Assembly: GCF_002999235.1 (NCBI RefSeq)
Contig: NZ_CP027236.1
Location: forward strand, 434,001 to 498,000
DNA: 64,000 bases
DNA from: Actinomyces sp. oral taxon 897
Lineage (GTDB): Bacteria; Actinomycetota; Actinomycetes; Actinomycetales; Actinomycetaceae
Direction: 5' to 3'
Position numbers and translations under genes: made by a program. Shown here piece by piece: positions 1,871-61,444 of the stretch. How positions within the stretch are numbered: position 1 is the stretch's first letter; each line of letters starts with the position of its first letter. Under the pieces are notes generated by a model. That model did no database searches. It was not told where the DNA came from and saw only the letters and a list, made by a program, of their open reading frames with translations.

Positions 1871-1927
1871 TCGTAAGAACGGTACTTATTCGTCGCGAGA
1901 ACGGTACTTGTTCGTCGTGAGAACGGG
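1871..1927 (+). repeat. 22-bp repeat array A (facing right)
   Basis: Two full units plus a partial third, with AGAACGG starting at 1876, 1898 and 1920, so the period is exactly 22 bp. Shared core AGAACGGTACTTRTTC followed by GTCGYG. The last, partial unit breaks off as GAGAACGGGTG. The same unit in opposite orientation occurs at 3742-3786, and two more arrays occur near 61 kb. There are no unique spacers, so it is not a CRISPR array. Confidence 0.95.
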
Positions 1928-2229
1928 TGTGAGCTGGTGGTGTCTGGGTGGTGCTGCGGGCGGGGTCCGGGGCGGGTGCTGCTGGGCTGCTGCCTGGGTG
2001 CCGGTTCGGTTGGGTGGGTGTGGGACGTGGGTCCTGGTTTGGGGGGTGTGGGTGTGGGGGTGTCTGGGGTTCTGGTGTGTGGTGGTTGTGGTGTGTGTGC
2101 GTGGGTTGGGTGGTGGTGTTATGGTGGTGTGTGTCGTCTGGTTGGCGGTGGGGTTGGTCGTGGTGGCGCTGGTGCCGCCGGGCCCGCCCCTGGTGTTCGT
2201 CGTTTTCCTGGGTGTGTGAGGGGGTCGTG
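1928..2229 (+). other. G/T-rich, C-poor intergenic tract before the lipoprotein gene
   Basis: About 300 bases dominated by G and T on the plus strand, with runs such as TGTGGTGGTTGTGGTGTGTG and very few A residues. The open frames across it translate to Val/Gly/Trp-rich or His/Pro/Thr-rich low-complexity peptides and are not credible genes. It separates array A from the lipoprotein start and should contain that gene's promoter, but no hexamer pair stands out. Many GG/GGG runs give G-quadruplex potential on this strand. Confidence 0.7.
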
Positions 2230-2889
2230 ATGGTGCGGGTCCGGTCGTGGACGACGCCTGTCCTGGTGGTGGTCATGGTGTCCGTCCTGGTGGGGTGCTC
2301 TGGCGGGGCTGGTGCGGGGGCGTCGCCGAGTGTGGATCCCTATGAGGTGGGGGCCAGCGCGATGGCGGCTGCGGCCTCTGCGTCGGCCAGTGCGCGGGCC
2401 AGTCGTGACGCGGCCCTGGGGCCGGACCTGGCGGCCAGGCGCGAGGCGGCCCTGGCCACACCACCACCGGAGCGGCCCGAGAACCTGGGTGAGGACAGCC
2501 TGGAGGCGGCAGCGGCCGCGGCCGTGTACTTCCTCCGGCTCTACCAGTACGCCTTCGTCACCGGTGACACCAAGGACTTCGAGGCCATGAGCGAGCAGCA
2601 GTGCAAGTTCTGCAACAACATTATCGACAAGGTCACCAGGCTGCACCAGGAGGGGGGCTGGGCCGACCCCTGGGAGCAGACCGCCGAGAAGGTCGAGGCC
2701 TACCCCCTCAACCCCGGATACGAATACCACCAGGTAGACGTCACCCTGCACAGCGGGGACATCTCGACCCACCACGGGGACGGCTCGGACGGAAAGAACT
2801 CCCCGGCCGAGACCAACCTCGTCCGCATAGCGATACGTTATCACGACGGCACATGGACCGTAGGGGGCACGGAGGTAGTAGAGTCATGA
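2230..2889 (+). CDS. Lipoprotein resembling DUF6318
   Basis: 219 residues. A short basic N-terminus and hydrophobic core end in the lipobox LVGC (Cys23), so signal peptidase II processing and anchoring on the outer face of the membrane are predicted. An Ala/Ser-rich linker follows. The folded part starts near residue 90 with AAAAVYFLRLYQYAFVTGD, then a CKFC pair (Cys125, Cys128), and ends in a YHDGTWTV strand. This layout resembles DUF6318, a family of unknown function seen in Actinomyces. ATG is preceded by a strong GAGGGGG site. It overlaps the next gene by four bases (ATGA), so the pair is translationally coupled. The 3' end is less GC-rich than the 5' half. No function is assigned; the CxxC may bind metal or form a disulfide. 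Confidence 0.75.
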   Translation: MVRVRSWTTPVLVVVMVSVLVGCSGGAGAGASPSVDPYEVGASAMAAAASASASARASRDAALGPDLAARREAALATPPPERPENLGEDSLEAAAAAAVYFLRLYQYAFVTGDTKDFEAMSEQQCKFCNNIIDKVTRLHQEGGWADPWEQTAEKVEAYPLNPGYEYHQVDVTLHSGDISTHHGDGSDGKNSPAETNLVRIAIRYHDGTWTVGGTEVVES

Positions 2890-3713
2890 CAGCAAGGTTC
2901 CTGCGCGGTCTCGGGGTGCTGGCCTCTCTCTCATTCGTCACCATCGCTCCTGCGGCACAGGCCGACGGAGACTCGTCAAATGCCGCCATCACCGGATCAT
3001 CAGAAGGAAACTCCATTACGCTTATTGGTGATCAGTATGAGCGTCTGGATCCGGCTGCGGGTGCGGGGTCGGGTTCGTCTAGTGGTTCTGGGTCGGGTTC
3101 GTCTGGTGGGTCGTCTGACGTGGTGGTGTCGTTCTCGGTGTCGAAGCCGGGCAAGACCCCGCTGGTGTGCGTGGCCTACGCCCCGGACCCCGGCCACCTG
3201 TTCTGCAGGCCCTACGAACCCGAGGAGCCCGAGGAGCCCGCCCCGGCAGTGGTGCCGGTGGTGGTCTCGGCCAGGGACGTGGCCTCCCTGATGGTGGACG
3301 GGTCGGGCATCACCCGCCAGCCCCCTGGTACCACGGCCCGGGTGGACGTGGACCTCATCGCCTACACCGACCCCTCCACCCGCACCCTGTCCACCACCGT
3401 GGCCGGGGTGGCCGTGGAGGTCGAGGCCACCCCCACCTCCTACCACTGGGACTGGGGCGACGCCACCACCACGACCACCACCAGCCCCGGCGCCCCCTGG
3501 CCCCACCAGACCCTGACCCACCGCTACCACCACCCCCAGACCGGCGTCCACCTCACCCTGACCACCACCTGGACCGCCCGCTACCGCCCCCAGGACGGAA
3601 CCTGGCACGACGTCCAAGGCACCGTCACAACAACCCAACAGTCTGACACCTTCAACCTAGTAGACACCACAACACACCTCACCGACCACGCAGAGCACAA
3701 ACAAGGACACTAA
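2886..3713 (+). CDS. Secreted protein with PKD-like domain
   Basis: 275 residues. It has a signal peptide (RFLRGLGVLASLSFVTIAPAAQADG, cleaved near residue 26) and a Ser/Gly-rich spacer near residues 60-80. Then comes a Val/Ser-rich strand region with two cysteines (LVCVAYAPDPGHLFC) and a Glu/Pro stretch. The C-terminal half contains SYHWDWGD and LTHRY, which match the WDWGDG and HxY hallmarks of PKD-type beta-sandwich domains. The last 90 residues are Thr/His-rich because the plus strand is C/A-rich there. There is no LPxTG or C-terminal helix, so it is probably released or held by its partner. ATG overlaps the stop of the upstream lipoprotein gene, so the two are likely co-produced. Role unknown; a surface or adhesin-like part is plausible. 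Confidence 0.7.
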   Translation: MTARFLRGLGVLASLSFVTIAPAAQADGDSSNAAITGSSEGNSITLIGDQYERLDPAAGAGSGSSSGSGSGSSGGSSDVVVSFSVSKPGKTPLVCVAYAPDPGHLFCRPYEPEEPEEPAPAVVPVVVSARDVASLMVDGSGITRQPPGTTARVDVDLIAYTDPSTRTLSTTVAGVAVEVEATPTSYHWDWGDATTTTTTSPGAPWPHQTLTHRYHHPQTGVHLTLTTTWTARYRPQDGTWHDVQGTVTTTQQSDTFNLVDTTTHLTDHAEHKQGH

Positions 3714-3741
3714 ACAACCCCCAGCACCCACCCCCGCACAC

Positions 3742-3786
3742 AATAAGTACCGTTCTCACGACGAACAAGTACCGTTCTCACGAGAG
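3742..3786 (-). repeat. 22-bp repeat array A' (facing left)
   Basis: On the minus strand there are two units, GAGAACGGTACTTGTTCGTC and GAGAACGGTACTTATT, preceded by a short partial unit CTCTCGT. It is inverted relative to array A, so the two arrays face each other across the lipoprotein/PKD pair. It begins 29 bases after the stop of the PKD-like gene and ends about 115 bases from the convergent mannosyltransferase stop. Confidence 0.95.
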
Positions 3787-3901
3787 GGTGCGAGGCAGCA
3801 CACCAGCGGCCAACCCCACCCCACCGCCCGTACTCACCGACACGCCGCCCACCAGGAGCACAGAGCCTGACGAGCCGCCCGCGCCTTGAATCCAAGGTGT
3901 C

Positions 3902-5080
3902 CTAGTCCGTCCAGGCCCCTATTGAGAACAAGAACGTGTTCAAGGTGAACAAGAGGAATGAGCTGGCCATGACGAGGACGCGGACTCGGGTCCTGGCCCT
4001 GGTCAGGACGTCACCCGCCAGGACCCACGTCGGAAACAGGGTGACGGAGTTCCGTGCGAATGACACGAGCGTGGTCGAGGTACCCATTGACAGGACAAGC
4101 AGGGTCGCGTACATGAGCTCGGCGTATTCCCTCCGCCTCCACCAGGCCCAGCAGCAGGACAGGACGACCAGGAAGAAGATAAAGTCGAGAAGGAACTGGA
4201 GCTGACGGTCCGGGGTACTCCCGACGGCGGCGACGCCCAGGGTCCGCGCTATCGTCATGACCGGGAGGCTCAGCTCACGGTTCCACCCGTGGCCCTGGGC
4301 GTGCGACCAGGCGAGCGCGTCCCCCGTCACCGAGTAGAGGCGCGCGAACCAGCCGAGCAGGAAGCCTGCGGGGAGAACTACCCACGAAAAGCGCCACCAC
4401 CTGCTCAGGCCGCACCGACACGCCTGCATGACCAGTACCGCCGCCACGAGAAACACGGCGTTGACGCGGACGAGCACGGCCAGGGACAGCAGGGCCGCGC
4501 ACGTCCACCAACGTCCACGACGAGCGAGGTACCACGCCGTCACGGCCAGGGCAAGGTACAGCGACTCGGCGTAGGACGCATAAAGGAACACCGAGTAAGG
4601 TCCGGCCATGAGCAGGACGACCGGGAGAAGCTCGTTGTACGACAGCTCATCCCCGGCTCCGGTCTCCAGGGCGACGAGGCGTGAGAAGACCACCGCAGTC
4701 CACCAGGACGACGCGGAGGCGACGACCAGCATGGCGATCCCGGTGCTCTGGGAGGGAAGGACTGCGGCAACCCAGCGCGAAAGGTACGGGTACCCCGGGA
4801 AGAAGGCCGCGAGGCCGTACTCGGCGTCTGCGCCGTACCCTTGTGAGGCGATCGTGAAGTAGTAGTTCGTGTCCCAGTGGCCTAACAGCCCCGGCAGTCC
4901 CGTGACGGAGTCCGCGGAGGGGTCTCCGAGCCGGTCGGTCACGCCAGGCGAAAGCTCTGTGCACCACGCGACGAGGCTGATGCCGAGGACCACCAGCCTC
5001 GCCAGCAGCCAGACGACCGAACCCAGGGTCAGGGCGTGAACCCACGGCCGGGTTCGTGGGGAGTAGTGAACGCAGTCCAC
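3902..5080 (-). CDS. PIG-V-like membrane mannosyltransferase
   Basis: 392 residues with about nine predicted membrane helices. Signature positions of the PIG-V/GT-C type are visible: HWDTNYYFTIASQGY (acidic residue in the first extracytoplasmic loop, about residues 68-82), FFPGYPYLSRW (about 93-103) and GPYSVFLYASYAESLY (about 158-173). Such enzymes transfer a sugar from a polyprenyl-phosphate donor on the outer face of the membrane, here perhaps to a glycolipid, wall glycan or secreted protein. The start is GTG with no clear ribosome-binding site, so the transcript may be leaderless. Base composition is less GC-rich than most neighbours, which could reflect transfer or simply many membrane codons. 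Acceptor unknown. Confidence 0.8.
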   Translation of the reverse strand: MDCVHYSPRTRPWVHALTLGSVVWLLARLVVLGISLVAWCTELSPGVTDRLGDPSADSVTGLPGLLGHWDTNYYFTIASQGYGADAEYGLAAFFPGYPYLSRWVAAVLPSQSTGIAMLVVASASSWWTAVVFSRLVALETGAGDELSYNELLPVVLLMAGPYSVFLYASYAESLYLALAVTAWYLARRGRWWTCAALLSLAVLVRVNAVFLVAAVLVMQACRCGLSRWWRFSWVVLPAGFLLGWFARLYSVTGDALAWSHAQGHGWNRELSLPVMTIARTLGVAAVGSTPDRQLQFLLDFIFFLVVLSCCWAWWRRREYAELMYATLLVLSMGTSTTLVSFARNSVTLFPTWVLAGDVLTRARTRVRVLVMASSFLLFTLNTFLFSIGAWTD

Positions 5081-5141
5081 GAGGGGGAGCGTACAGCAGG
5101 CCGTCTGCCCGCCCGAGGAGTGCTGCCCGTGCCTTACGGCG

Positions 5142-5942
5142 TCAGATGGACGCCCCCCAGCAGGCCTCCGTCACGCCCCGGCCCACCGGCAGGCTGCGGG
5201 ACGCCCCGGTCGGGACCAGGCCGGCACCGGCCAGGAGGCGCGTCAGCGACTCGTCCCCGCGCACGGCCCAGACCAGGAGCACGCCCGCCCCGTCGGCCCG
5301 GGCCAGGTCAACGGCTGCTGCCAGGAGGCGTGAGCCGTGGCCGGCGCGCTGGTGGTCCGGGGACACCGCCAAGGCGGTCAGCTCCGCCGCCCGGACGGGC
5401 CCGGCGCCAGCAGGTCCAGCGGTGGCCCTGTCCGCGCTGGTGGGGCCCGTGCTGGTAGGTCTGTCCGCGCCGGTGGCCCCGAGGTCGACGCCGTCAACGG
5501 ACGAGGGGGTCCCGGCCCCGTCCACGCCGGCGGCCCCGCCCTGCCGGACGTCAGGCAGGGGTGCCAGGGCGGCCAGGCCGACGACCCCGCCGTCCTGCGT
5601 GGCCACCAGCACGTGGTGGGCCGGGCTCGGTGGTGCGCACACCGCGTCCCGCCAGCCGGCGGTCAGGACCGGTGCCGAGACCACGGCCCGCACGTCCTCC
5701 GGGACCCCGACATCGTGCACGGTGCGGTGGGCGGCGTCGAGGGAGGCCGTCATGGCGGCGGCGTGAACCGCACCGACCGCCTCCAGGTCCTCGGCGCGCG
5801 CCTCGCGCACAAAACCGCCCCTGGCCGTCCGCCCGCCGCCCGCAGCGGACGCTCCCGGGTGCCGGAGACGGCGGACGGGGCGCAGGGGCCCGGGCTCCGT
5901 GCCGTGCGCGGCTGCTGCGCCCTGGCCCTGGTGCGTGCTCAT
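5142..5942 (-). CDS. GNAT-family N-acetyltransferase with low-complexity insert
   Basis: 266 residues. After about 40 unstructured residues the GNAT fold begins at FVREARAEDLEAVGAVHAAAM. A strand follows (HVLVATQDGGVVGLAAL), and the acetyl-CoA-binding segment is ELTALAVSPDHQRAGHGSRLL (about residues 187-207), matching the family's Q/RxxGxG/A motif as QRAGHG. Between strands 3 and 4 is an insert of about 50 residues rich in Gly, Ala, Thr and Pro, unusual for the family and probably a disordered loop. The C-terminal LLAGAGLVPTGASRSLPVG is the usual last strand pair. Substrate unknown. The gene starts just inside a set of 60-bp repeats and is divergent from the SatD-like gene. Confidence 0.8.
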   Translation of the reverse strand: MSTHQGQGAAAAHGTEPGPLRPVRRLRHPGASAAGGGRTARGGFVREARAEDLEAVGAVHAAAMTASLDAAHRTVHDVGVPEDVRAVVSAPVLTAGWRDAVCAPPSPAHHVLVATQDGGVVGLAALAPLPDVRQGGAAGVDGAGTPSSVDGVDLGATGADRPTSTGPTSADRATAGPAGAGPVRAAELTALAVSPDHQRAGHGSRLLAAAVDLARADGAGVLLVWAVRGDESLTRLLAGAGLVPTGASRSLPVGRGVTEACWGASI

Positions 5943-5990
5943 GGGGTGAGCCTACCGGCGTCCCGGGCCGCCCACCGGCGCCTCCCGGCG

Positions 5991-6179
5991 TCCCGCGGGG
6001 GTCCTGCCCCGTGGCGGGCCGCCACCGGCGCCGCGGCAGGCCATCCCGCAGGGGTCCTGAGGAGCAGCTGGTGCCCGGCACGACTCCGCCAGCCGGGTAG
6101 CCGTCCTGCGGGGGTCCTGCGCCCGCCAGCGGGTGGCCGGCGGGCACGGTCACGGGCAGTCCGTCCCGCAGGGGTCCTG
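5991..6179 (+). repeat. Four-copy 60-bp-period repeat
   Basis: The motif TCCCGCRGGGGTCCTG (one copy has TCCTGCG at its start) begins at 5991, 6044, 6104 and 6164. Spacing is 53, 60 and 60 bp. The sequence between copies is not conserved. It lies directly upstream of the GNAT gene, so it could be a set of binding sites or the remnant of tandem duplication. Confidence 0.8.
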
Positions 6180-6326
6180 CCCCGGGTGCGGGCGTCCGCG
6201 GCCACCGGCATCGCGGCGGTCAAAGGTCTTAGACACGCCGGTTCCGAGCCGATGTGGTGCCAATGCGGTCGCGACACCCGTCAATCACAACTTAAGCCTT
6301 GAATCCCGTCGATCAAGTTCCTGGTC

Positions 6327-6356
6327 TTGAGGATTCCTGGGCGGGTGCCGCATACT
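6327..6356 (+). promoter_or_regulatory. Leaderless promoter of the SatD-like gene
   Basis: TTGAGG (6327-6332) and CATACT (6351-6356) are separated by 18 bp. The expected start of transcription coincides with the GTG at 6363, so the message would be leaderless. This explains why the in-frame TTG at 6327 is not the start codon: it is part of the -35 hexamer. Confidence 0.55.
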
Positions 6357-6362
6357 GTCCAC

Positions 6363-6980
6363 GTGCTTGTCCTGACCATTGACCAGCAGGGATCGCGCAC
6401 CGGCCAGGACCGGGTGCCCGGGCTCCTGCGGGCCCTGGAGGCCGTGCCCGTCCGGGCCGCCTTCGAGCGCACCGTGGGTGACGAGCTCCAGGGCGTCCCC
6501 CAGGGGGCGGAGGCCGCATACCAGGCCATCCGCGTGGCCACCCGTGACGGCGACTGGCACGTGGGCCTGGGTGCCGGGCCCGGGGAGCTCGACGACGGCG
6601 CCAGTACCCGGGCCGGACGCGGCCCCGCCTTCCTCCACGCCAGGCAGGCCGTCGAGGCCGCCAAGGGCTCCCACGTCTCCCTGGCGGTCCGGGCGCCGGA
6701 CGCGCAGGCCGAGGCGAGGGCCCAGGCCGTGCTCCGGCTCCTGGCCTGCCTCCTGGGGCGCCGCACCCCCGCCCAGTGGGAGGCCGTCGATCTGCTGGAG
6801 GAGGGCCTGAGCGGGCACGAGGCCGCAACCAGGCTGGGTATTAGCGACCAGGCCCTCTCCCAGCGGCGCCTCACCTCCGGCCTCGAGGAGGAGGTGGGGG
6901 CGCGCCCCTACGTCATCGACCTCCTGCGGGCCCTGGACACCCCGGCCCAGGGACCTGTGCCGTCGTCGGGAAAGAGGTAG
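6363..6980 (+). CDS. SatD-like protein with C-terminal helix-turn-helix
   Basis: 205 residues. The N-terminal strand LVLTIDQQGSR and the following LLRALEAVPVRAAFERTVGDELQGV resemble the SatD family, whose members open with a strand ending in D-x-x-x-S-R and then a GDEFQ-type motif (here GDELQ). A strand GDWHVGLGAGP follows. The C-terminal 75 residues contain a helix-turn-helix (EGLSGHEAATRLGISDQALSQRR) that could bind DNA. A GTG start is preferred over an upstream TTG because a promoter occupies that position. The downstream membrane gene starts five bases after its stop; the streptococcal satD/satE pair, linked to acid tolerance, has a similar order. Function here is unknown. Confidence 0.65.
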   Translation: MLVLTIDQQGSRTGQDRVPGLLRALEAVPVRAAFERTVGDELQGVPQGAEAAYQAIRVATRDGDWHVGLGAGPGELDDGASTRAGRGPAFLHARQAVEAAKGSHVSLAVRAPDAQAEARAQAVLRLLACLLGRRTPAQWEAVDLLEEGLSGHEAATRLGISDQALSQRRLTSGLEEEVGARPYVIDLLRALDTPAQGPVPSSGKR

Positions 6981-6985
6981 CCGTC

Positions 6986-7522
6986 GTGTCTGACGTCACC
7001 GCCGTCGGGACCGTCCTGGCCGTGCTGGCGGCCTCCACGCTGGGCGGGTGGGGCGTCGTGGTCCTGCACTGGGCCAGGGTCCCCCAGCCGCCCGTCGGCA
7101 CCGTCACCAGCCAGGACGGCACCCAGGTCCCGGTCCTGGAGGCGGGGCCCCAGCACGAGCCGGTCGTGCTCAGGGGCGGGACCTGGATCGGCCTGCTGGA
7201 GCGGCTCGCGACCACCGGGGCTCTCCTGGCGCTCCAGCCGGGGCTGCTCGCCGTCGTCGTGGCCGTCAAGGGCCTGGGACGCTGGTCCGACCTGCGTGAC
7301 AACCCCGCGGTCACCGAGCGCTTCATTATCGGCACGCTCGCCTCCCTGACCTGGGCGGGGGCCTGCGGCATCGTGGGGGCGCGCCTGCTGGGCGGGGCGC
7401 TCAGCCCGCAGCGGCCTTGCCGCTCAGCTCGGCGACCGGCTCAACTCCCACCCGTGGGGCGTCGCGCACGGCCCCACCCCAGCGAGTGGCGTCACAGGTG
7501 GCTGGGGGCGCCGGAGACGTAG
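6986..7522 (+). CDS. Small membrane protein, partner of the SatD-like protein
   Basis: 178 residues. Three hydrophobic segments are visible, at about residues 5-25, 72-93 and 112-135, with a polar loop between the first two. GTG is preceded by AAGAGG at a normal distance, and the gene sits five bases after the SatD-like gene, so they form an operon. The last 40 residues (after RLLGGAL) are Arg/Pro-rich and look out of frame. A neighbouring frame reads more naturally there and would end in an ATGA overlap with dapA. A frameshift or simply a divergent tail are both possible. No family assigned with confidence. Confidence 0.6.
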   Translation: MSDVTAVGTVLAVLAASTLGGWGVVVLHWARVPQPPVGTVTSQDGTQVPVLEAGPQHEPVVLRGGTWIGLLERLATTGALLALQPGLLAVVVAVKGLGRWSDLRDNPAVTERFIIGTLASLTWAGACGIVGARLLGGALSPQRPCRSARRPAQLPPVGRRARPHPSEWRHRWLGAPET

Positions 7523-7531
7523 GCTCTGCCC

Positions 7532-8437
7532 ATGACGGCTCCTGCCACACCTCCCTCCCGTTCCTTCGGCTCCGTCGGCGTGGCCATGGTCACGCCCTTT
7601 ACCCCAGAGGGCGTCATCGACATCCGTGCCGCCCAGGAGCTCGCCGTCTCCCTGGTGGACGACGGCGCCGACCTCATCCTCCTGGCGGGAACCACCGGCG
7701 AGGCCCCCACCACCCACCTGCCGGAGAAGCAGGCCCTCATCCGTGAGGTCAAGGACGCCCTGGAAGGACGCGCCCTGCTCATGGCCGGGGCCGGGAGCAA
7801 CGACACCGCCCACGCCGTGCGCATTGGCGTGGGCTCCCAGGCGGCCGGGGCCCAGGCCCTGCTCATTAACGCCCCGTACTACAACCGCCCCAGCCAGGAG
7901 GGCGTCTACCGGCACATTATGGCCGTGGTCGAGGCCACCGACCTGCCTGTCATGATCTACGACATCCCCGGCCGCACCGGCGTGCGTATTGAGGACGGCA
8001 CCCTGGCCCGCCTGGCCGAGCACCCCCGTGTCCTGGCCGTCAAGGACGCCACCGGCGACGTCGAGCAGGGCTTCTGCCGTATGGAGGCCACCGGCCTGGA
8101 GTACTACTCCGGGGACGACGGGCTCAACTTCGCCTGGCTCGCCCACGGCGCCTCCGGCATGGTCTCCGTGGTGGCCCACGCCGACGCCCACTCCTGGCGC
8201 CAGATGGTCACCGAGGTCGACGCCGGGGACCTCGCCGGGGCCCGCGCCGTCGCCCAGCGCATGCGTCCGCTGGTGCGCGCCATGATGGGCGGGGGACAGG
8301 GCGCCGTCATGGCCAAGGAGGCCCTCCTCCTCCAGGGGCGCATCCCCTCGGCCGCCCTGCGCCTGCCCCTGGTGCGTGCCAGCCAGACGGAGGTCGAGGC
8401 CCTGCGCACCACCCTCGCTACCTGCGGGCTGCTCTGA
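7532..8437 (+). CDS. dapA: 4-hydroxy-tetrahydrodipicolinate synthase
   Basis: 301 residues, the normal family length. It condenses pyruvate with aspartate semialdehyde at the branch point to diaminopimelate and lysine, in the cytosol. Visible motifs are the pyruvate-binding GTTGE (LLAGTTGEAPTT), YYNRP with the catalytic-triad Tyr, the PGRTG strand, and the Schiff-base lysine in VLAVKDATGD. A (beta/alpha)8 barrel covers the whole protein, with the usual helical C-terminus. No other lysine-pathway gene is adjacent, so it is not part of a dap operon here. The upstream SatD-like pair is in the same direction with only nine bases between, so dapA may share its transcript. Confidence 0.95.
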   Translation: MTAPATPPSRSFGSVGVAMVTPFTPEGVIDIRAAQELAVSLVDDGADLILLAGTTGEAPTTHLPEKQALIREVKDALEGRALLMAGAGSNDTAHAVRIGVGSQAAGAQALLINAPYYNRPSQEGVYRHIMAVVEATDLPVMIYDIPGRTGVRIEDGTLARLAEHPRVLAVKDATGDVEQGFCRMEATGLEYYSGDDGLNFAWLAHGASGMVSVVAHADAHSWRQMVTEVDAGDLAGARAVAQRMRPLVRAMMGGGQGAVMAKEALLLQGRIPSAALRLPLVRASQTEVEALRTTLATCGLL

Positions 8438-8555
8438 GGCGGTACCTGGGGAGGGTAGTCGACCACAGGGCCTACACCTGACTGGGCCTAAGGGATGCCC
8501 TCCGCTCCTTCTTATGGAGGAAGAGAACCTCTCTGCCACCTCGTAACCTGCTGGT

Positions 8556-9857
8556 GTGCCAGCTCTGAACCTACGTATCTCCGCCCCCGACCACCAAGAA
8601 GGGCCGGACCTGGGCCCCGGCGACCTGCTGGGGCCCCGTGCCCTGGACTGGCGGTCCCGCCTGCGCTGCCTGGCGCTGGGCAACACCTGCCTGATACCGC
8701 TCAGCGACCTCGTCCTGACCGGCGTGTGCCTGCTCGCCACCGGCGTCGAGGCCCTGGTGCTCAGCGACCCCCGCCCGGCCGGCCTGGCCCTGCTGGCCGT
8801 CCACCTCCTCATGACCCTCGTCCAGCCGCTGAGGCACGTCCGCCAGCGCACCTGCCTGGTCCTGACCTACGCGGGACTCGCCCTGAGCGCCCTCCTGGCC
8901 TGGGCCGGCCCGGTGGGCCTCCTGGGGCTGAGCCCCCTGGTGGTGACCGCGGCCACCAGCCTGCACACGATCACCCGCTGGGATCCGGACCACCGGTGGG
9001 CGGTGGGCGCCCTCCTCCTGGCCGTAGCCGGGTCCGTGGCCAACCCGGCCCTCCTGGCACGCCTGGACTCACCCGCCCTGGCCCGCGACATGGCCTGGCT
9101 GCTGCCCCTCACGGTGGCCTGCGCGGTCGCGGTCGTCGTCACCTACCTCCAGGCAGCCTCCCGCCGGGACGCCCTGGAGCAGCGCCAGCAGGGCCTCTGC
9201 TGGCTCGCCGCGCAGGCCACCGTGGCCGAGCGCCTGGACCTGGCCCGTGAGGCGCACAACGTCATCGGCCACCGCCTGACCGCCATTAGGCTCCAGGCCG
9301 CCAGCGGGTCCATGATGACGGACCCGGAGAGGCTGCGCACCGCCATGAGCACGATCCAGGACGTCGCGGACACGACCCTGGTGTCCGTCCACGAGGTGGT
9401 CGCGCTCCTGCAGGCCGACAGGTCACCGGTGCCCGGCCGCTACGCCCCCACGGGGGACGTCACCGTCGTCCCGGACCTCCTGAGCCACTGGGGGGCCGAG
9501 CCTGACGACACGCCGTCGGGCGCCGCCGTGCCCGACGCCGCCACCCTGGCCACCTGGAACACCACCTGGACGCTCCTGCAGCGCCTGGCCCTCGTCCGCG
9601 TCCTCAACGAGGCCCTGGCCGACGCCTCCCGCGGCTCCACCCCGCGGGTGAGCCTGTACGTGCGTGACGGCTGGTGCAGGCTGTCGGTCACCGACGCCCT
9701 GCCGCCGCGGCGCCGGTCCGAGGAGCGTGGGACCGGCCTGGTCGGCCTGGGGGAGCGGCTGAGGATGGCCGGGGGGTTCTTTGAGACCGGACCCGTCGAG
9801 CTGCCTGACGGCACCCCGGGGTCCCGGCTCTCCCTCGCCTTCCCGGTGGCCGGATAG
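8556..9857 (+). CDS. Orphan NarL-type sensor histidine kinase
   Basis: 433 residues. Five or six membrane helices occupy about residues 45-198 and form the sensor. The dimerisation/phosphoacceptor segment of the HisKA_3 type is ERLDLAREAHNVIGHRLTAI with His234; the residue after the histidine is Asn235, where most relatives have Asp. The ATPase part shows an N-box (LNEALADA, Asn351), a D-box (VTDALPP, Asp380) and a G-box (GTGLVGLGERL, about 392-402). No response regulator gene lies next to it; its downstream neighbour is convergent. The signal and partner are unknown. The GTG start is the first in frame after the AT-richer leader. Confidence 0.85.
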   Translation: MPALNLRISAPDHQEGPDLGPGDLLGPRALDWRSRLRCLALGNTCLIPLSDLVLTGVCLLATGVEALVLSDPRPAGLALLAVHLLMTLVQPLRHVRQRTCLVLTYAGLALSALLAWAGPVGLLGLSPLVVTAATSLHTITRWDPDHRWAVGALLLAVAGSVANPALLARLDSPALARDMAWLLPLTVACAVAVVVTYLQAASRRDALEQRQQGLCWLAAQATVAERLDLAREAHNVIGHRLTAIRLQAASGSMMTDPERLRTAMSTIQDVADTTLVSVHEVVALLQADRSPVPGRYAPTGDVTVVPDLLSHWGAEPDDTPSGAAVPDAATLATWNTTWTLLQRLALVRVLNEALADASRGSTPRVSLYVRDGWCRLSVTDALPPRRRSEERGTGLVGLGERLRMAGGFFETGPVELPDGTPGSRLSLAFPVAG

Positions 9858-9961
9858 CCCCGGTGCCAGTGCCAGCCGGGTGGGCCGGGTGGGCTACTGG
9901 CCCCACGCCCGCGCCCGGTGGGTGGCTGCCGGCCCAGCGCTGGGCGGTCCGGACCGGCGCA

Positions 9962-9986
9962 GGCGCCCGGCCCGGTGCCGGGCGCC
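9962..9986. terminator. Bidirectional hairpin between convergent genes
   Basis: GGCGCCCGGC and GCCGGGCGCC form a perfect 10-bp stem with a 5-base loop, between the ends of the histidine kinase and the acyl-CoA ligase genes. No T-run on either side. Position and symmetry suit a shared terminator. Confidence 0.55.
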
Positions 9987-9991
9987 CCGGC

Positions 9992-47878: not shown

Positions 47879-47894
47879 TAGATAACCTGGTGAC

Positions 47895-51157: not shown

Positions 51158-51163
51158 CCAGCG

Positions 51164-51242: not shown

Positions 51243-51256
51243 CCCCGGTGGGCCAA

Positions 51257-51310: not shown

Positions 51311-51351
51311 GCGAGGGCGGGCGTGGGCGGCGAAACGGTAGGGTCCTGACC

Positions 51352-54253: not shown

Positions 54254-54566
54254 GGCGTCTCCAGCCCGCTGGCAGCCAGGCGGCCCCGGACCCCCGGGTC
54301 CTGCCCAGGGCCGCTCTGGTGGTGACCCCTGGATCCCCCCGGGCCCCGCCCAGGGCTGCCGGGCGGTAGGCGGGGCGGTGACTGCGACCCTGCGGAGTCG
54401 GCCCGTATCCTGGACGTGGGGCGGACCGCGTCTCCCTGGCGGTCCGGGCACCGGACGCTCCCCGTATCCTGGCTGCGCCGGGCGGACACGGGGCTGCGGC
54501 ACCGCGGGCCCCGGGCGGGAGTAGGCTTGCCGGGTACGGTCCCCGTGCCCAGGAAGGTGTTAGGAC
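54254..54566. other. Intergenic region upstream of the aldehyde dehydrogenase
   Basis: No gene seen. The 12-base sequence CCCGTATCCTGG occurs at 54402 and 54461. Each contains TATCCT, which could serve as a -10 element; no matching -35 is obvious. The aldehyde dehydrogenase ATG follows AGGAAGGTGTTAGGAC. Confidence 0.5.
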
Positions 54567-56189
54567 ATGACCTCCTCCCAGGCCCTTGGCGCCCCGCCCC
54601 TGAGTGCCCCTGACCAGGTCGACGACGTGGCGGGTCGTATCGACGCCCGGGGCCGGGCCGCCCTGGCCCGCTTGGGCGTGACCCTCCGGCCCCCGCGCTC
54701 CCCGGGCCTCGAGGCCTCCTCCGTGCTGACCGGGACCAGGGTGGGGACCCTGCCGCGTACCCGTCCCGAGGCCCTGGCCGCCCTGGCGGACCGGGCGCGC
54801 GCCGCCCAGCAGCGCTGGGAGACGGTCAGCGTGCGGGACCGGGGCCGGGTGCTCCTGGCCTTCCACGACCTGCTCTGGCAGGAGCGGCAGGCCCTGCTCG
54901 ACCTCGTCCAGTGGGAGTGCGGCAAGGCCCGGGCCCACGCCTTCGAGGAGCTGGCCGACACGGCCATGAACGCCCGCTACTACGCGGCGACGGCGCACCG
55001 CCACCTGGCCCGGTGCCGCCGCCGCGGTGCCGTGGCGGGCCTGACCCGGGTCACCGTCGGCTACCAGCCCAAGGGCCTGGTGGGCGTGATCTCCCCTTGG
55101 AACTACCCCCTGACCCTGGCGGCCTCGGACGCCCTGGCCGCCCTGGTCGCGGGCAACGCGGTCATGCTCAAGCCCGACAGCCTCACCCCCCTGACCGCCC
55201 TGGCCGTGCGCTCCCTGCTGAGGCGTGCGGGCCTGCCCGAGGGGCTCCTGACCGTGGTCCTGGGGCCGGGGGCCGAGCTCGGGACGCCCCTGGTCAAGGC
55301 CTGTGACGCGGTCATGTTCACCGGCTCGTCGGCCACCGGCGCGACGGTGGCGGTCCAGGGCGCGGCCCGCCTGGTGAGCGTGTCGGCCGAGCTCGGCGGC
55401 AAGAACCCGCTCATTGTGCGCGCCGACGCGCCCCTGCGCCGGACGGTGCGCGGCGCGCTCAGGGCCTGCTTCTCCAACTCCGGGCAGCTATGCGTCTCCA
55501 TTGAGCGCGTCTACGTCCACGAGGCCGTCTGGGACCGGTTCGTGCCCGCCTTCGTGTCGGCCGCCCGCACCCTGCGGGTGGGGGCCGACATGGAGTGGTC
55601 CACCGGCATGGGCCCGCTGATCAGCCCCGCCCACCTGGAGCGGGTCCACGCCCACGTGGAGGACGCCGTCGCCCGGGGGGCCACTGTCCTGACCGGCGGG
55701 CACCCCCTGCCCGGTACCCACCCCACCGCCTACGCACCCACCGTCCTGACCGGGGTGGGGCCCGGCATGAGGGTCTACCGGGAGGAGACCTTCGGTCCCG
55801 TCGTCGCCCTGTACCCGGTGGCGGACGACGCCGCCGCCCTGGCCGCCGCCAACGACAGCCCCTACGGCCTCAACGCCTCGGTGTGGACCCGGGACACCGC
55901 CGCTGGCCGGGCGCTGGCACGTCGCCTGCGCTGCGGCACCGTCAACGTCAACGAGGGCTACGCCGCCACCTGGGGCTCGACCGACGCGCCCATGGGCGGC
56001 ATGGGGGCCTCCGGTCTGGGACGGCGTCACGGGCCGGAGGGGATCCGCAAGTACACCGAGGTCCAGGCCGTCGCCGTGCAGCACGGGCTGGGCCTGCACG
56101 CGCCCCCGGGCGTGGGGGAGCGGGCCTGGGCGGGGGCGCTGGCCACCTACCTGCGCGGCCTGCGGCACCTGACCTGCCCGCTGCGCTGA
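54567..56189 (+). CDS. NAD(P)-dependent aldehyde dehydrogenase (succinate-semialdehyde type)
   Basis: 540 residues. Cofactor and substrate motifs: VGVISPWNYPLTL, GNAVMLKPDSLTPLTAL, FTGSSATGATVA, the general base Glu275 in SAELGGKNP and the catalytic Cys309 in NSGQLCVSIERV. EETFGPVVALYPV is the conserved late segment. The YQPKGLVGVISPWNYP start and S-x-x-NEG near the end resemble the succinate-semialdehyde dehydrogenase group of actinobacteria, whose real substrates vary. A short-chain dehydrogenase follows in the same direction, so the two may oxidise an alcohol to an acid in sequence. Confidence 0.88.
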   Translation: MTSSQALGAPPLSAPDQVDDVAGRIDARGRAALARLGVTLRPPRSPGLEASSVLTGTRVGTLPRTRPEALAALADRARAAQQRWETVSVRDRGRVLLAFHDLLWQERQALLDLVQWECGKARAHAFEELADTAMNARYYAATAHRHLARCRRRGAVAGLTRVTVGYQPKGLVGVISPWNYPLTLAASDALAALVAGNAVMLKPDSLTPLTALAVRSLLRRAGLPEGLLTVVLGPGAELGTPLVKACDAVMFTGSSATGATVAVQGAARLVSVSAELGGKNPLIVRADAPLRRTVRGALRACFSNSGQLCVSIERVYVHEAVWDRFVPAFVSAARTLRVGADMEWSTGMGPLISPAHLERVHAHVEDAVARGATVLTGGHPLPGTHPTAYAPTVLTGVGPGMRVYREETFGPVVALYPVADDAAALAAANDSPYGLNASVWTRDTAAGRALARRLRCGTVNVNEGYAATWGSTDAPMGGMGASGLGRRHGPEGIRKYTEVQAVAVQHGLGLHAPPGVGERAWAGALATYLRGLRHLTCPLR

Positions 56190-56316
56190 CGCCCCTGCCT
56201 ACTGCGCTGACGGCCCTGACCGATGCGGTGACACAGGACCGGCAGCACGGACATTCTGGCGAGTGCTGGCACCCCTGCCCGCTGCGCCGCCACCCGCCGA
56301 CACTAAGGACCCTGAC

Positions 56317-57186
56317 ATGAGAAGTACAGCGCGGACCCCTCGTCCCCTGTCTCCCGCCCGTTCGCGTCGCACCCCCGTGCGGGGCGCCGTCGTCCTGGTC
56401 ACCGGGGCGGCCTCCGGGATCGGCGCCCTCGTGGCCGTCCAGGCTGCCCACCGGGGCGCCCGGGCCGTGGTCCTCTGGGACCTGGACCTGCCCGCCGCCC
56501 AGGACGTGGCCACCCGGGTCCAGGCGGCCGGGGCCACCTGCCTGGCCCAGCGGGTGGACCTGCGCGACGCCCAGGAGGTGGAGGCCGCCGGGCGGGTGGT
56601 CCTGGAGCGCCTGGGAAGGGTGGACGTACTGGTCAACTCCGCGGGGGTGGTCACCGGCAGGCGCTTCGAGGACCTCTCCGAGGAGGACGTGGCGCGCACC
56701 TTCGACGTCAACGTCCTGGCCCTGTACCGGGTGGTGCGCTGCTTCCTGCCCGGTATGCGCACCCGGGACCGGGGCTGCGTGGTGACTATCGCCTCCGCCG
56801 CCGGGCTGGTGGGGGTGGCCCGGCAGACCGACTACTCGGCCTCCAAGTTCGCCGCCGTCGGCTTTATGGAGTCGCTGCGCAGTGAGCTGCGCCGCTCCGG
56901 CTCCCACGTGCGCACCCTGGTGGTCGCGCCGTACTACGTCTCCACCGGCATGTTCGCCGGCGTGCGCACCCGCGTCCCCCTCCTCCTGCCCGTCCTGGAG
57001 CCGGGGCGTGTGGCCAGCCAGGTCCTGGACTCCGTCGAGCGCGGGGACGCCCGGCGGATCCTGCCGTGGTTCGCCAACGCGGTCCTGCTGGTCAAGGCCC
57101 TGCCGGTACCGGTGGCCGACGCGGTCACGGACCTGTTCGGCATCTCGACCACCATGGACACCTTCACAGGTCGCTCCGGGCACTGA
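56317..57186 (+). CDS. Short-chain dehydrogenase/reductase (SDR16C-like)
   Basis: 289 residues. Rossmann motifs: VVLVTGAASGIGALVA (about 25-40), LVNSAGVVTG, and the active site with Ser in TIASAAGLVG and Tyr-x-x-x-Lys in YSASKFA. The C-terminal helices (PWFANAVLLVKALPVPVADAV) form a hydrophobic stretch as in the SDR16C (retinol/long-chain alcohol dehydrogenase-like) group. The start is the ATG after AAGGA. It likely uses NAD(P) with a lipid-like alcohol or ketone, and follows the aldehyde dehydrogenase. Confidence 0.85.
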   Translation: MRSTARTPRPLSPARSRRTPVRGAVVLVTGAASGIGALVAVQAAHRGARAVVLWDLDLPAAQDVATRVQAAGATCLAQRVDLRDAQEVEAAGRVVLERLGRVDVLVNSAGVVTGRRFEDLSEEDVARTFDVNVLALYRVVRCFLPGMRTRDRGCVVTIASAAGLVGVARQTDYSASKFAAVGFMESLRSELRRSGSHVRTLVVAPYYVSTGMFAGVRTRVPLLLPVLEPGRVASQVLDSVERGDARRILPWFANAVLLVKALPVPVADAVTDLFGISTTMDTFTGRSGH

Positions 57187-57575
57187 GCCAGTCGCCCCGG
57201 GCACTGAACCGGCCGCCCCGGTACTTAGGGCCGCAGGGGCGGGGACTGGGGGCCCGCTGGCACGAATCGGCTGGCGCTAATCACACCGGGACCACGGGGC
57301 CGGGGCCCGGGCACCGGGTAGGGCCATGGGCGTGCCTGCGCCCGCTGAGGCCCGGGGAAGGGCACAATACAGCCAGGATGGTGGCCCGCGTACCGTCGCT
57401 GCGCCACCCCTCCTGCCGGTGCGCGCCAAAGCCGCCTGCACCCGCCCAGGCGGTTCCTGAGCGCGGCCCACCTGGTACCGGTGGGACGTCCTTGTCCAAG
57501 TGTCGGAGTCCGGGACGACGTCGTCTGCCCGGAGGCGCGGTCGCCAGGCCCGTGGTGACTGAAGAGGGAGCGAGT
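57187..57575. other. Intergenic region before the 656-residue orphan gene
   Basis: No credible gene. The frame of the next gene stays open through here but translates to Gly/Pro/Arg-rich sequence. No strong hairpin-plus-T-run or repeat; CTTGTCCAAGTG near 57492 is a slightly AT-richer spot where a promoter could lie. Confidence 0.45.
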
Positions 57576-59546
57576 ATGCTGGGGTACCGAAGCACCTTCA
57601 CCGTGGCCGATCCCCGTGACTCGGTCGTGGACCGGGTCCGGGGGATTATGGTGCGCTGGTCGGAGGCGAAGCACGGGGAGGTGCTGGGACCGCACGGGCT
57701 CGACGACCTCGTCCCCGGCAGCCGGGTGTCCCCGGCGCCCTCGCTGGAGTTCTTCCTGGTCGACACCACGGAGGAGTCGGGGGACCGGATCATGGGGTTC
57801 GTCTGCGTCGAGAGCAACGGGCGTGACGCCTGGACGAGCCAGGTCATGGTGGCCGGCCCGGAGGAGGGCGGGCGTACCGTGATCGCGGTGGACATCGACG
57901 CCCAGTCCGCCTCGACGGAGCCGTCCCGCCCCACCACCATGGGCGTACCCCGTTTCGTGCGCAATATGCTGGAGGAGTTCGACTGCGACGACAACGGGAT
58001 CACCCTGTCCAACGACCCGCGCGTGCTCCACGCCGAGGACGTGGACACCCTCATTAAGGAGCTCGGGGAGGACGACCACCACGGGCTCGTGCTCGTGGCG
58101 GGGACGCCCGAGGACTTCCCGGTGGACAGGTGGAAGAGCCTCATTGACAGCAAGGTCACCTGCGGGACGGCCGGGCAGAGCGCCGTCTACGTCCTGGACG
58201 CCAAGGCCACCGAGGCCTTCAATGCCAAGGTGTCCCCCCGCCACGAGGTCCTCCCGGGCGGGCTGCGTACCTTCCTGCCCGGTGCGCACCTGAACGAGCC
58301 GCAGGACGGGATCCGCCACAGGTTCCTGGTGCCGGGCTCGATCGCCGACGACGTCGCCTGCCAACGGGCCGCGCGCGCGATCGAGCGGCGCGCACGGAAC
58401 TTCACCAACGAGCGGGCCCAGGACCGGCAGGTACGTCGCTACCGGCAGGTCCTGGACCGGCACCTGGACGACATCGTCTTCGCCCAGAGCGCCGAGAAGG
58501 AGCGACGTCGCCTGGCCGTGCAGCCCTCGCTGCTGCCCAATGAGGCCTACACGGCCATTGAGCAGCAGATCCCCACGACGCTCACGGCCGACGCGCTGAC
58601 GGCGCAGGCAGACCAGGTCACGCCGGTGCCCCGGGCGGACGCGACCATGATCGAGGCGCTGCGCGTCGAGCTGGCCCAGGTCCGCTCGGAGGCGGAGAGC
58701 CTACGCAACGAGGCCGGTGAGCACCAGCGCGCGCTCCTGGCCGCCGAGACCACGAACGACGAGATACGCCAGCGCCTGGCCTCCTCCGCCAACGAGGTCG
58801 AGCGGCTCAACGAGCAGATCGAGGCGGTGATCGACGAGCGTGACCTGCTTAAGAAGGCCCACGAGGACCTTGAGCTCGAGCTCGCCATCGCCATTGAGGA
58901 GACGGACAAGTCCGTCCCCCGTATGGTGCGGGCACAGCGTGAGATACTGCGCCTGCGTCGGCTCCTTGAGGACAACGGCCTGAGCGCGGAGGCCTGGAAC
59001 GAGGATCCCGAGTCGGTGGGGCCGGAGCGCCCCTCGAGCTGGAACGAGCTGGCGGTGCGGGCCTCCAGCGGGCACCTGGAGGGGCTGCCGGGGGTCACCT
59101 TCACGTGCGACTGGGACATTGTGGCCGACCTCGACGACCACTCCGACGTCCTGTGGCTGACCAAGACCTGGCAGATCCTCCAGGTGCTGAGCGACTACGC
59201 GCGCGCCCGGGCCGACTCCGAATGCGGGGTCAAGAACCTCCACACCTACCTCCAGGAGACCCCGCCCGGTTACCTGCCCCTGCCCGCGAGCAAGTACAAA
59301 CCACGAGAGTCCGACACCGTGACCAACCGGCCCGAGCTGGCCAAGGAACGCATGTTCCCCGTGCCCGTTACGGTCCCCGGCCGTGACCGCAACGGGTGCG
59401 TGTTCATGCAGGCGCACTTCGTGATCGCCCAGAGCAGCATGGTGTCCCCGCGCCTCTACCTCTACGACGCCACGAGGGTCAGGGGCTGCGGTGACGTCAT
59501 TGTCGGCTATATCGGCCCGCACCTGAGGAACGCCCACACCAACTGA
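57576..59546 (+). CDS. Large coiled-coil protein of unknown function
   Basis: 656 residues, cytosolic. Part 1 (1 to about 290) is mixed alpha/beta: MLGYRSTFTVADPRDSVVDRV, TVIAVDIDAQ, GLVLVAGTPEDFPVDRW, VYVLDAKATEAFN. Part 2 is a coiled coil (about 355-465) with heptads such as VERLNEQIEAVIDERDLL. Part 3 (about 485-656) ends in a compact basic region, MQAHFVIAQ, PRLYLYDAT, VIVGYIGPHLRNAHTN, with His614, Arg626 and His649 at positions that would suit a small RelE-like nuclease fold. This is inference. A single-gene, coiled-coil, modular layout is common among defence proteins. ATG with GAGGGAGCGAG. No partner gene adjoins. No known family recognised. Confidence 0.6.
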   Translation: MLGYRSTFTVADPRDSVVDRVRGIMVRWSEAKHGEVLGPHGLDDLVPGSRVSPAPSLEFFLVDTTEESGDRIMGFVCVESNGRDAWTSQVMVAGPEEGGRTVIAVDIDAQSASTEPSRPTTMGVPRFVRNMLEEFDCDDNGITLSNDPRVLHAEDVDTLIKELGEDDHHGLVLVAGTPEDFPVDRWKSLIDSKVTCGTAGQSAVYVLDAKATEAFNAKVSPRHEVLPGGLRTFLPGAHLNEPQDGIRHRFLVPGSIADDVACQRAARAIERRARNFTNERAQDRQVRRYRQVLDRHLDDIVFAQSAEKERRRLAVQPSLLPNEAYTAIEQQIPTTLTADALTAQADQVTPVPRADATMIEALRVELAQVRSEAESLRNEAGEHQRALLAAETTNDEIRQRLASSANEVERLNEQIEAVIDERDLLKKAHEDLELELAIAIEETDKSVPRMVRAQREILRLRRLLEDNGLSAEAWNEDPESVGPERPSSWNELAVRASSGHLEGLPGVTFTCDWDIVADLDDHSDVLWLTKTWQILQVLSDYARARADSECGVKNLHTYLQETPPGYLPLPASKYKPRESDTVTNRPELAKERMFPVPVTVPGRDRNGCVFMQAHFVIAQSSMVSPRLYLYDATRVRGCGDVIVGYIGPHLRNAHTN

Positions 59547-59641
59547 GGCGGGGGCGCCTCGTGTACGCCCACAGGGGCGCCCGCACCAACTGGTGCGGGG
59601 TGCGGGGGCGGCCAGCGGGCCCGGGCCGGTAGGCTCCTGCC

Positions 59642-61006
59642 ATGCTCCGCCGAACTGACCTGCGCCGCTCCGACCTGTCAGCCCGCCAGCTCGCCGCGGT
59701 CCTGCCGCGCGCCGAGGTCGACGTCGCCTCCGCCCTCCAGGCGGTGGCCCCCGTCCTGGCTGACGTGCGCCGGCGCGGGGCCGCCGCCCTGCGTGACGCC
59801 GCCGAGCGCTTCGACGGCGTGCGCCCCGAGCACCTGCGGGTCCCCGCCTCCGCCCTGGCCCGGGCCCTGGAGGACCTTGACCCCGCGGTCCGCCAGGCGC
59901 TGGAGCTCTCCGTCTCCCACAACCGTGCCGGGCACGCCGCCCAGCTGCCCACCGGGCGCAGCACGCAGGTCGTCCCCGGGGGCGTGGTCACCCAGCGCTG
60001 GGTCCCGGTGCGTCGCGTGGGCCTCTACGTCCCCGGGGGCCTGGCCGTCTACCCCTCCAGCGTGGTCATGAACGCGGTGGCTGCCCAGGTGGCGGGCGTG
60101 GAGCAGGTCGCCCTGGCCTCCCCGCCCCAGGCGGCCTTCTCGGGCCTGCCCCACCCCACCATCCTGGCGGCCTGCGCGCTGCTGGGGGTGGAGGAGGTCT
60201 ACGCCGTCGGCGGGGCGCAGGCCATTGCCATGCTGGCCTACGGCGCCGCCGTCGAGGACGACGTGGACCGTGCCGACGCCGGGGGTGAGGTGCTGTGCGA
60301 GCCGGTGGACGTGGTCACCGGCCCGGGCAACGTCTACGTGGCCGCCGCCAAGCGGGCGGTGCGGGGGGTGGTCGGCATTGACGCGGAGGCCGGGCCCACC
60401 GAGATCATGGTCCTGGCCGACGCCACCGCCGACGCCGAGTACGTGGCCGCCGACCTCCTGTCCCAGGCCGAGCACGACCCCCAGGCCGGCAGCGTCCTGG
60501 TCACCGACTCCGAGGCGCTGGCCGACGCCGTGGACGCCGCCCTGGAGCGGAGGCTGGCGGCCACCCGGCACCGGCAGCGGGCCGGGACCGCCCTGCGGGG
60601 CCCCCAGTCCGGCGTCGTGCTGGTGCGGGACACCGAGCAGGCCCTGGCCGTGGCCGACGCCTACGCCCCCGAGCACCTGGAGGTACAGACCGCCGACGCC
60701 GCCCGACTGGCCCGGCGGGTGCGCAGTGCCGGGGCGGTCTTCGTGGGGCCCTACAGCCCGGTGCCCCTGGGCGACTACCTGGCCGGCTCCAACCACGTCC
60801 TGCCCACCGGCGGCACGGCGCGCTTTACCGGCGGGCTGTCCGTCATGTCCTACCTCAAGCCGGTCCAGGTGGTGGAGTACGACGCCGCCGCCCTGGAGGC
60901 GGTGGCCGGGCCGCTGACGGCCCTGGCCGAGGCCGAGGACCTGCCTGCCCACGGCGAGGCGGTCCAGGCCCGCCACCCCCGCGAGAACGGTACTTATTTT
61001 TCGTGA
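59642..61006 (+). CDS. hisD: Histidinol dehydrogenase
   Basis: 454 residues. Zn-dependent two-step oxidation of histidinol to histidine. Motifs: [50 protein letters not shown], the zinc ligands in SQAEHDPQ and [15 protein letters not shown], and HGEAV at the end. The usual end is near HGEAVQAR; the last eight residues, RENGTYFS, are encoded by the first unit of the 22-bp repeat array, which supplies the stop. No other his genes adjoin. ATG start. Confidence 0.95.
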
Positions 61007-61080
61007 GAACGGTACTTGTTTGCCGTGAGAACGGTACTTGTTCGCCGTGAGAACGGTACTTGTTCCTCGTGAGAACGGGA
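60983..61080 (+). repeat. 22-bp repeat array B (facing right)
   Basis: Four full units and a partial fifth; AGAACGG starts at 60984, 61006, 61028, 61050 and 61072, so the period is exactly 22 bp. Core as in array A, with the same T/C variants after TTRTT. The first unit lies within the hisD coding sequence. The final unit breaks off as GAGAACGGGAG, like the end of array A. Confidence 0.95.
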
Positions 61081-61367
61081 GAGTCATTCAGGACGCCTAT
61101 GACTCCTGCCCTGATCTGCGAGGAGGCCTATACCTGGTAGTCCTCGGGGCGATCCACTGACACTCGGCGAGGGGCAAGGGGCATCCTGCGACGAGTGGTC
61201 TCCAGAGCGTTCTCCCATGTCGCCTGCTGGGGCCTGGCGGCTGCCAGCAGACTGAGTCGGGTGCGGGGGCACGATGGGCGTGCCACGCAGAGATCCCCGA
61301 GCCTCCGAGCCTGGCGTGCCGCACAGGTCCCGAGCTTCCGAGCCTGGCTCCCCGCGAGCACCCCTCC
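61081..61367. other. Non-coding DNA enclosed by arrays B and B'
   Basis: No credible gene in 287 bases. It contains an imperfect tandem repeat of about 35 bp (separate entry). This is the B-pair counterpart of the gene cassette enclosed by A and A', but it is far shorter. Confidence 0.6.
61278..61346 (+). repeat. 35-bp imperfect tandem repeat
   Basis: Two units, each beginning GGCGTGCC and ending CCGAGCYTCCGAGCCT, at 61278 and 61313. Within each, CCGAGC is itself doubled. Confidence 0.75.
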
Positions 61368-61444
61368 CGTTCTCACGAAGAATAAGTACCGTTCTCGCGG
61401 CGAACAAGTACCGTTCTCGCGAGGAATAAGTACCGTTCTCGCGG
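61368..61444 (-). repeat. 22-bp repeat array B' (facing left)
   Basis: On the minus strand three full units of GAGAACGGTACTTRTTC(C/G/T) plus a partial inner unit GAGAACGGGAGGGG. Inverted relative to array B. It lies 46 bases past the stop of the CorA-type gene, in the same sense as that gene. Confidence 0.95.

Follow-up and report, generated by a model that had tools for sequence, protein, structure and literature searches.

The chromosome of Actinomyces sp. oral taxon 897 carries a large family of short tandem arrays with a strict 22-bp period, most of which stand in sense orientation just behind the end of a gene. We analysed a stretch of 64,000 nucleotides (the window; RefSeq assembly GCF_002999235.1, contig NZ_CP027236.1, positions 434,001 to 498,000), in which an earlier note had described four such arrays as two facing, inverted pairs, A with A' and B with B'. 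The repeats are real, and the family is much larger than first described; the window holds 4 of more than 100 arrays in the genome. We tentatively favour, at a little below an even chance, the reading that the arrays are tandem, phase-locked sites of a lineage-specific protein that acts at gene 3' ends, most likely as a transcription boundary. The observations in support of this reading are the 22-bp phasing, the a(ba)n structure, the 17 fixed and five free positions, the sense placement, the leader, the constant half with its species-specific partner halves, the scarcity of damaged copies and the array site at mfd, occupied in 6 of 19 array-bearing relatives with rewritten sequence.

Within the window, the core AGAACGGTACTTRTTC was matched 11 times at up to three mismatches, whereas 100 shuffles averaged 0.09 matches and never exceeded one, which bears out all four arrays. 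In the 3.25-Mb genome the core occurs 420 times at up to one mismatch. A search with up to two mismatches, as suggested in the earlier note, returned 425 cores and none for the reversed control, and hence a large family; only five more cores appear between the two thresholds, so that damaged copies are very few. A pattern for the canonical array end, which leaves out arrays whose last half precedes T or is lost, was found at 100 places, 46 on the plus and 54 on the minus strand. Our counts of units and contexts rest on 76 stretches around these ends, with 345 of the approximately 425 units, and on genes called by a home-made codon model. Removal of one chance match in L069 lowered the totals from 112 to 111 arrays and from 346 to 345 units. 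The 111 arrays hold 1 to 7 units each, with three as the commonest number, and successive units always lie exactly 22 bp apart, so the strict period seen in the window arrays holds in all of them. Spacers are absent, as the earlier note had also stated: the units abut at 22 bp in all 111 arrays, and we rejected a clustered regularly interspaced short palindromic repeat (CRISPR) array on this ground.

An array follows the formula a(ba)n, in which an 11-bp half 'a' (CGYGAGAACGG) alternates with an 11-bp half 'b' (TACTTRTTNNY). Arrays start with the 'a' half and as a rule end again with GAGAACGG, which identifies the terminal partial unit described before as a closing 'a' half. A clean end is lacking in some arrays, A' included, and among four inspected loci with non-canonical matches three end in GAGAACGGT and one is ragged. 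All 17 fixed positions are intact in 329 of 345 units, and 10 of the 16 imperfect units are the last of their array. The free positions (13, 16, 17, 18 and 21) form 50 haplotypes, and 107 of the 111 arrays are distinct. Intact fixed positions speak against slow decay, and such diversity at the free ones speaks against recent multiplication of a single source copy. Simple tandem-repeat noise from replication slippage would account for a difference of one whole unit, which was seen at 3 of 11 sites matched between two relatives (G012 and G043, below), but not for hundreds of copies at unlinked sites with fixed and free positions and sense placement; we give it almost no credence, as copy number and constraint refute it.

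The unit is not a palindrome, since position 13 can hold A or G and position 16 can hold C, G or T, so that the arms of an only partial dyad are not kept. A fold test gave mean z values of −1.4 in sense and −1.0 in antisense for the first 60 arrays, and thus no special RNA fold. Several other candidates were rejected: a known structured RNA (no Rfam 15 match over the gathering score in six loci), a replication-oriented signal (every one of the 13 stretches of 250 kb that contain canonical ends has them on both strands) and a phage or plasmid origin (no match among the searched sequences, which included 72,556 plasmid records, and no exact 17-mer in viral contigs). In public genomes the exact 17-mer was found in 17 stretches of unrelated taxa, with one match each, a count from which records of the own genome may be left out. 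Plasmid replication iterons are directly repeated, phase-locked protein-binding units of about 22 bp; the arrays, in contrast, lie at more than 100 chromosomal gene-end sites rather than at one origin. The contig G000:C2 (L182, 5399 bp) looks like a chromosomal fragment and not a plasmid, judging by eye from its NAD kinase-like and RecN-like open reading frames (ORFs), and none of the listed array matches falls on it. We found no description of such arrays in the open-access literature, although one elsewhere remains possible.

Of 110 arrays, 87 have the end of a same-strand gene upstream, with a median distance of 47 nt (P = 6e-10 against one half), and in the gaps between co-directional genes 34 arrays are in sense and 15 in antisense (P = 0.009). 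Fifty-one of the 111 arrays stand between convergent genes, 7 between divergent genes and 1 inside a called gene; four further arrays overlap a gene end. The upstream genes are ordinary: 20 were scanned by Pfam, among them mfd (transcription-repair coupling factor), purH, a PRK-family kinase gene, transporters and a phosphorylase, and 1 had no match. The inward pairing noted in the window exceeds chance across the genome, as among 14 cases of canonical ends that neighbour each other within 2.5 kb, 11 point inward, 2 point outward and 1 has both ends in the same direction (binomial P = 4e-5 against 1/4). It arises mostly because arrays sit in sense behind their own gene and convergent genes have one each.

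The leader, from the stop codon to the array, is C-rich and G-poor in this genome (C 0.66, G 0.16 at −15 to −11), and over its last 46 nt it is less folded than shuffles (−12.2 versus −15.0). By comparison, 87 array-free gene ends within the 76 stretches show C 0.39 and G 0.40 over their first 30 nt, and they fold somewhat more strongly than shuffles. Downstream of the arrays the first stretch is somewhat more folded than shuffles, and strong hairpins (stem score at least 13) are found behind 5 of 111 arrays and at about 5% of the 87 controls. In L111 and L124 strong hairpins adjoin the arrays. A motif resembling TYCACAG or TGTGGATAA occurs weakly in the first 60 nt behind arrays (L057-L132; L171, L173), at 8 of 111 against 1 of 87 controls, and on the other strand at 4 of 6 arrays of the G049 sample.

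Sense placement after stop codons and an unstructured, C-rich leader would also suit arrays that act in RNA, either as an element of the 3' untranslated region through which transcripts would be protected or trimmed by an RNA-binding protein or small RNA, or, together with the leader, as a Rho-type terminator. The hairpins downstream of 5 arrays and the identical arms of five close inverted pairs in genomes G018 and G010 agree with such a role, but the 345 strictly spaced units contain no indel and fold weakly, the six loci gave no Rfam match, and the leader, which in the own genome resembles the stretch behind the stop codon at a Rho-dependent terminator, is missing at mfd in three relatives (G026, G031 and G036). 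We know of no Rho site with phased tandem repeats in species dialects, and we consider an action in RNA improbable.

The comparison with related genomes that the earlier note had suggested gave a divided result. Searched for directly, the core of the own genome yields only stray matches (one or two at up to one mismatch in 13 of the family's 212 other genomes, a single one of which belongs to the genus). A looser pattern of two GAGANCGG words 12 to 16 bases apart, however, occurs 15 to 574 times in 20 of 49 genomes of the genus, the own included, at most 9 times in the other 29, and at most 6 times in 164 genomes of other genera; the reversed control stays at or below 3 in every genome. Among the matches listed, the second half is species-specific (for example TCGAAAATAGGAGC in G010 and G018, TTCAGTTCCGCATC in G011 and GACATATGGCTCAC in G049), and the units of G012 and G014 measure 23 bp. 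The C-rich lead is also present in sampled arrays of G049, G014, G018 and G010 (6, 2, 18 and 16 arrays; C 0.47-0.62, G 0.14-0.20). In a survey of 13-base words, array words rank top in the samples of G049, G018 and G010, and nothing comparable was found in 160 kb of G035 or 80 kb of G029. The window motif thus represents the dialect of a single species within a family found across the genus.

Five inverted array pairs at most 12 nt apart were found in G010 and G018, and their arms are identical in all five, which makes them long perfect palindromes; the stretches of G018 and G010 gave 6 matches in a nucleotide comparison, none longer than 300 bp. In G004, which has three pattern matches only, the two shown form one array in the dialect of G049 (L183 1501-1552), and its flanks are near-identical to those of L173 12610-12677 in G049, as if transferred or common by descent. 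Other short tandem repeats of 19-25 bp in relatives look like insertion-sequence ends (L175 2256 and 9612; L181 449; L167 4097 and 7967; L170 6501).

Species dialects raise the question of whether the arrays could be uptake or self-recognition signals, by analogy with the DNA uptake sequences (DUS) of Neisseriaceae, although phased tandem arrays are, to our knowledge, no feature of DUS. As far as the available text of PMC3630211 goes, DUS have 10-12 bases, form eight dialects with a common CTG core, and occur in thousands of copies, often inside genes; inverted pairs are associated with terminators, and some genomes have none. The arrays resemble the DUS so described in a core common to species combined with a species-specific remainder, in the inverted pairs behind genes in G010 and G018 and in the existence of genomes without them, and the G004 array in G049 dialect with its similar flanks would suit transfer of this kind. 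They differ in their 22/23-bp units set in phased tandem, in their lower copy number and in lying nearly always outside genes (1 of 111 called inside one), where DUS are commonly intragenic in the same text; spacing along the chromosome is also near random (coefficient of variation 0.92). The probability of an uptake or self-recognition role is in our view low.

We then compared orthologous gene ends by means of a GAG-NN-CGG tandem pattern, by which arrays with another anchor would be missed. The mfd end carries an array in 6 of 19 other array-bearing genomes (G012, G015, G026, G030, G031 and G036), in each case in its own dialect. A closer view of turnover comes from G012 and G043, in which flank probes are 93-100% identical and 11 of 13 G012 array sites could be matched. 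Two of the 11 have identical arrays, 3 show a difference of one whole 23-bp unit together with a few substitutions, 4 have arrays in both genomes with other units or flanks, and 2 have no array in G043. The comparison of empty sites advised in the earlier note thus yielded two candidates, but their edges are not clean: at one, leader and array are missing together directly after the stop codon. At another site, similarity ends at the stop codon though arrays are present in both. Some units in G012 and G043 look decayed, unlike those of the own genome.

Sites without an array bear on the main rival to our reading, namely that the arrays are the ends of a non-autonomous mobile element or REPIN-like selfish repeats (REPIN, doublet of repetitive extragenic palindromic (REP) sequences forming hairpins), multiplied by a putative enzyme that binds tandem sites, with gene 3' ends as tolerated landing places. 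Sequence common to the array of another locus starts at the downstream edge in 15 of 111 arrays and at the upstream edge in 2 of 111. What lies between A and A' is found again at L080 and L128, between facing arrays each time and with 87-92% identity in long pieces. A cassette that pairs a DUF6318 gene with another secreted-looking ORF is present three times in the stretches analysed (window 2347-3713, L080 3588-4936 and L128 3129-4486), and one of its proteins is 97% identical between the window and L128. A noncoding island of about 950 bp lies between facing arrays in L081 (2444-3398) and, in opposite orientation and with other genes around it, in L122 (2463-3392). Segments capped by arrays would fit transposon ends, or recombination that uses the arrays as common sequence. 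The patchy spread over the genus, the two sites without an array in G043 (one with its leader gone too) and the likeness of the other 19-26-bp repeats of relatives to transposon ends all speak for mobility. Most arrays, on the other hand, are unpaired.

The searches for an enzyme were negative within their range. The rve transposase domain (PF00665) was absent from the own genome, the only one searched (control positive in 6 of 14 known genomes), and Y1/RAYT (REP-associated tyrosine transposase; PF01797), which the control detected in 5 of 14 known genomes, from all 49 genus genomes, among them the own; no transposase was found among ten inner genes scanned, and classes other than rve and Y1 were outside the search. 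Active rve-type transposon ends (IS3, IS481, IS21, Tn7, Mu) in this genome were rejected for want of a PF00665 match. Transposon ends of the Mu, Tn7 and IS21 type contain several binding sites of about 22 bp per end, and the ends face inward. The arrays share the multiple units of about 22 bp and the inward orientation, and some segments between facing arrays are dispersed; they differ in that no rve was found in the own genome and that the majority of arrays are solitary and follow a gene in sense. The suggestion in the earlier note that the arrays are ends of a non-autonomous element keeps the edge sharing and the dispersed segments in its favour, and has the missing rve and Y1 against it.

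A likeness to REP and REPIN sequences lies in the hundreds of short, extragenic, noncoding copies, the species-specific sequence and the inverted pairs, as far as the available parts of PMC3116915 and PMC3733652 describe them. The same parts present REPs as palindromes, mostly with a GTAG or CGTC tag, whereas the units here are non-palindromic and in phased direct tandem. In the available text of PMC3116915, the REPs of P. fluorescens SBW25 rise from 1053 to 1249 and 1422 copies at 0, 1 and 2 substitutions; such substituted copies are many there and hardly exist here. REP or REPIN sequences with a RAYT were rejected (no PF01797 in 49 genus genomes; unit not palindromic, with a fold z of about −1.4 and −1.0). 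Very few copies have damaged fixed positions, and the edges of the array-plus-leader difference are not clean. We regard a mobile or selfish origin as a real possibility, though less likely than the reading that we favour.

In the reading that we favour, a site-specific protein at gene 3' ends, the putative protein would recognise the array as DNA, along one face, and the array would limit transcription running into the neighbouring gene, above all between convergent genes. The dialect would shift together with the specificity of this protein, and the arrays of one genome would stay alike through selection and recombination between arrays. Several observations weigh against this reading. No cognate protein has been found, and none was searched for without bias. 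Twenty-three of 110 arrays, window array A included, have no same-strand gene upstream, and the sense bias is weaker in relatives (22 of 34 in G018 and G010 together, 4 of 6 in G049). At the five loci with a hairpin downstream, the array would stand inside the transcript and not at its end. At the mfd end in G026, G031 and G036 the C-rich leader is lacking, and the first half-unit overlaps the stop codon. Among array-bearing relatives an array follows purH in 0 of 19, the PRK-family gene (presumably coaA-like) in 1 of 19 (G028) and hisD in 0 of 11; most sites therefore turn over, whereas at mfd the place is kept and the sequence rewritten. Array-capped segments of two kinds recur at several loci (L067/L080/L128 and L081/L122), and the spread over the genus is patchy; both fit a mobile element at least as well.

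The window arrays and their neighbours are listed in the table together with the palindromes of relatives. The units of both pairs point inward and the break GAGAACGGG is common to A, B and B', as described before. Of the three arrays said to lie just past gene ends, A', B and B' do follow genes in sense, but B overlaps the last codons of hisD: the called frame stops within the first unit, and its final codons are array sequence. In relatives with the same orientation, hisD stops soon past its conserved part, without an array; the downstream regions differ between species and no empty site is readable there, and the hisD identities and tree, which mixed strands, are a rough guide only. Array A is the exception to placement at gene ends, with a minus-strand methyltransferase gene (1188-1793) starting 82 bp off. 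Overall, the interpretation of the earlier note is partly supported, in that the family is real, has a strict period of two helical turns and lies at gene ends.

Table. Arrays and neighbouring features in the window, with palindromic array pairs of two related genomes
Feature	Position	Strand	Composition and setting	Basis
Leader before array A	1840..1875	+	C-rich, G-poor	sequence; leader statistics from 111 arrays
Array A	1876..1927	+	two 22-bp units (1876, 1898) and terminal half AGAACGGG at 1920-1927	
Two ORFs between A and A' (DUF6318; second without Pfam match)	2347..3713	+	segment recurs at L080 and L128 between facing arrays	
Array A' (in L067)	3735..3782	-	two units, cores 3763-3778 and 3741-3756; second unit ragged at end, without canonical terminal half	
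PIG-V mannosyltransferase-like gene	3902..4942	-	array A' 123 nt downstream in sense	Pfam
hisD (histidinol dehydrogenase)	59642..61006	+	followed by array B in sense	Pfam and called frame
Array B	60984..61079	+	four units (60984, 61006, 61028, 61050) and terminal half AGAACGGG at 61072-61079	
Array B'	61366..61443	-	three units, cores 61424-61439, 61402-61417 and 61380-61395, and AGAACGGG at 61366-61373	
CorA-like transporter gene	61491..62516	-	followed by array B' in sense	Pfam
Facing short-array palindromes in G010/G018	L225 11984-12051; L226 11840-11907; L227 1469-1536; L218 9454-9521; L219 4998-5065			

A bolder extension, which we think unlikely, is a genus-wide DNA address system, in which one protein lineage would read a two-part word of 22/23 bp in phased tandem at gene ends, the constant half serving as anchor and the other half being rewritten in step at more than 100 sites per genome during species divergence, so that arrays would both insulate genes and mark the DNA of the species. 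Many dispersed sites share a form specific to their species, and at least one site (mfd) occupies the same gene end in several species, which makes a testable case of concerted evolution in bacteria. The pattern points to a sequence-reading factor in these bacteria, and the mfd sites, the pair G012 and G043 and the array-poor members of the genus offer contrasts for finding this factor and its role, whether in transcript ends, in the spread of DNA or in the marking of self.

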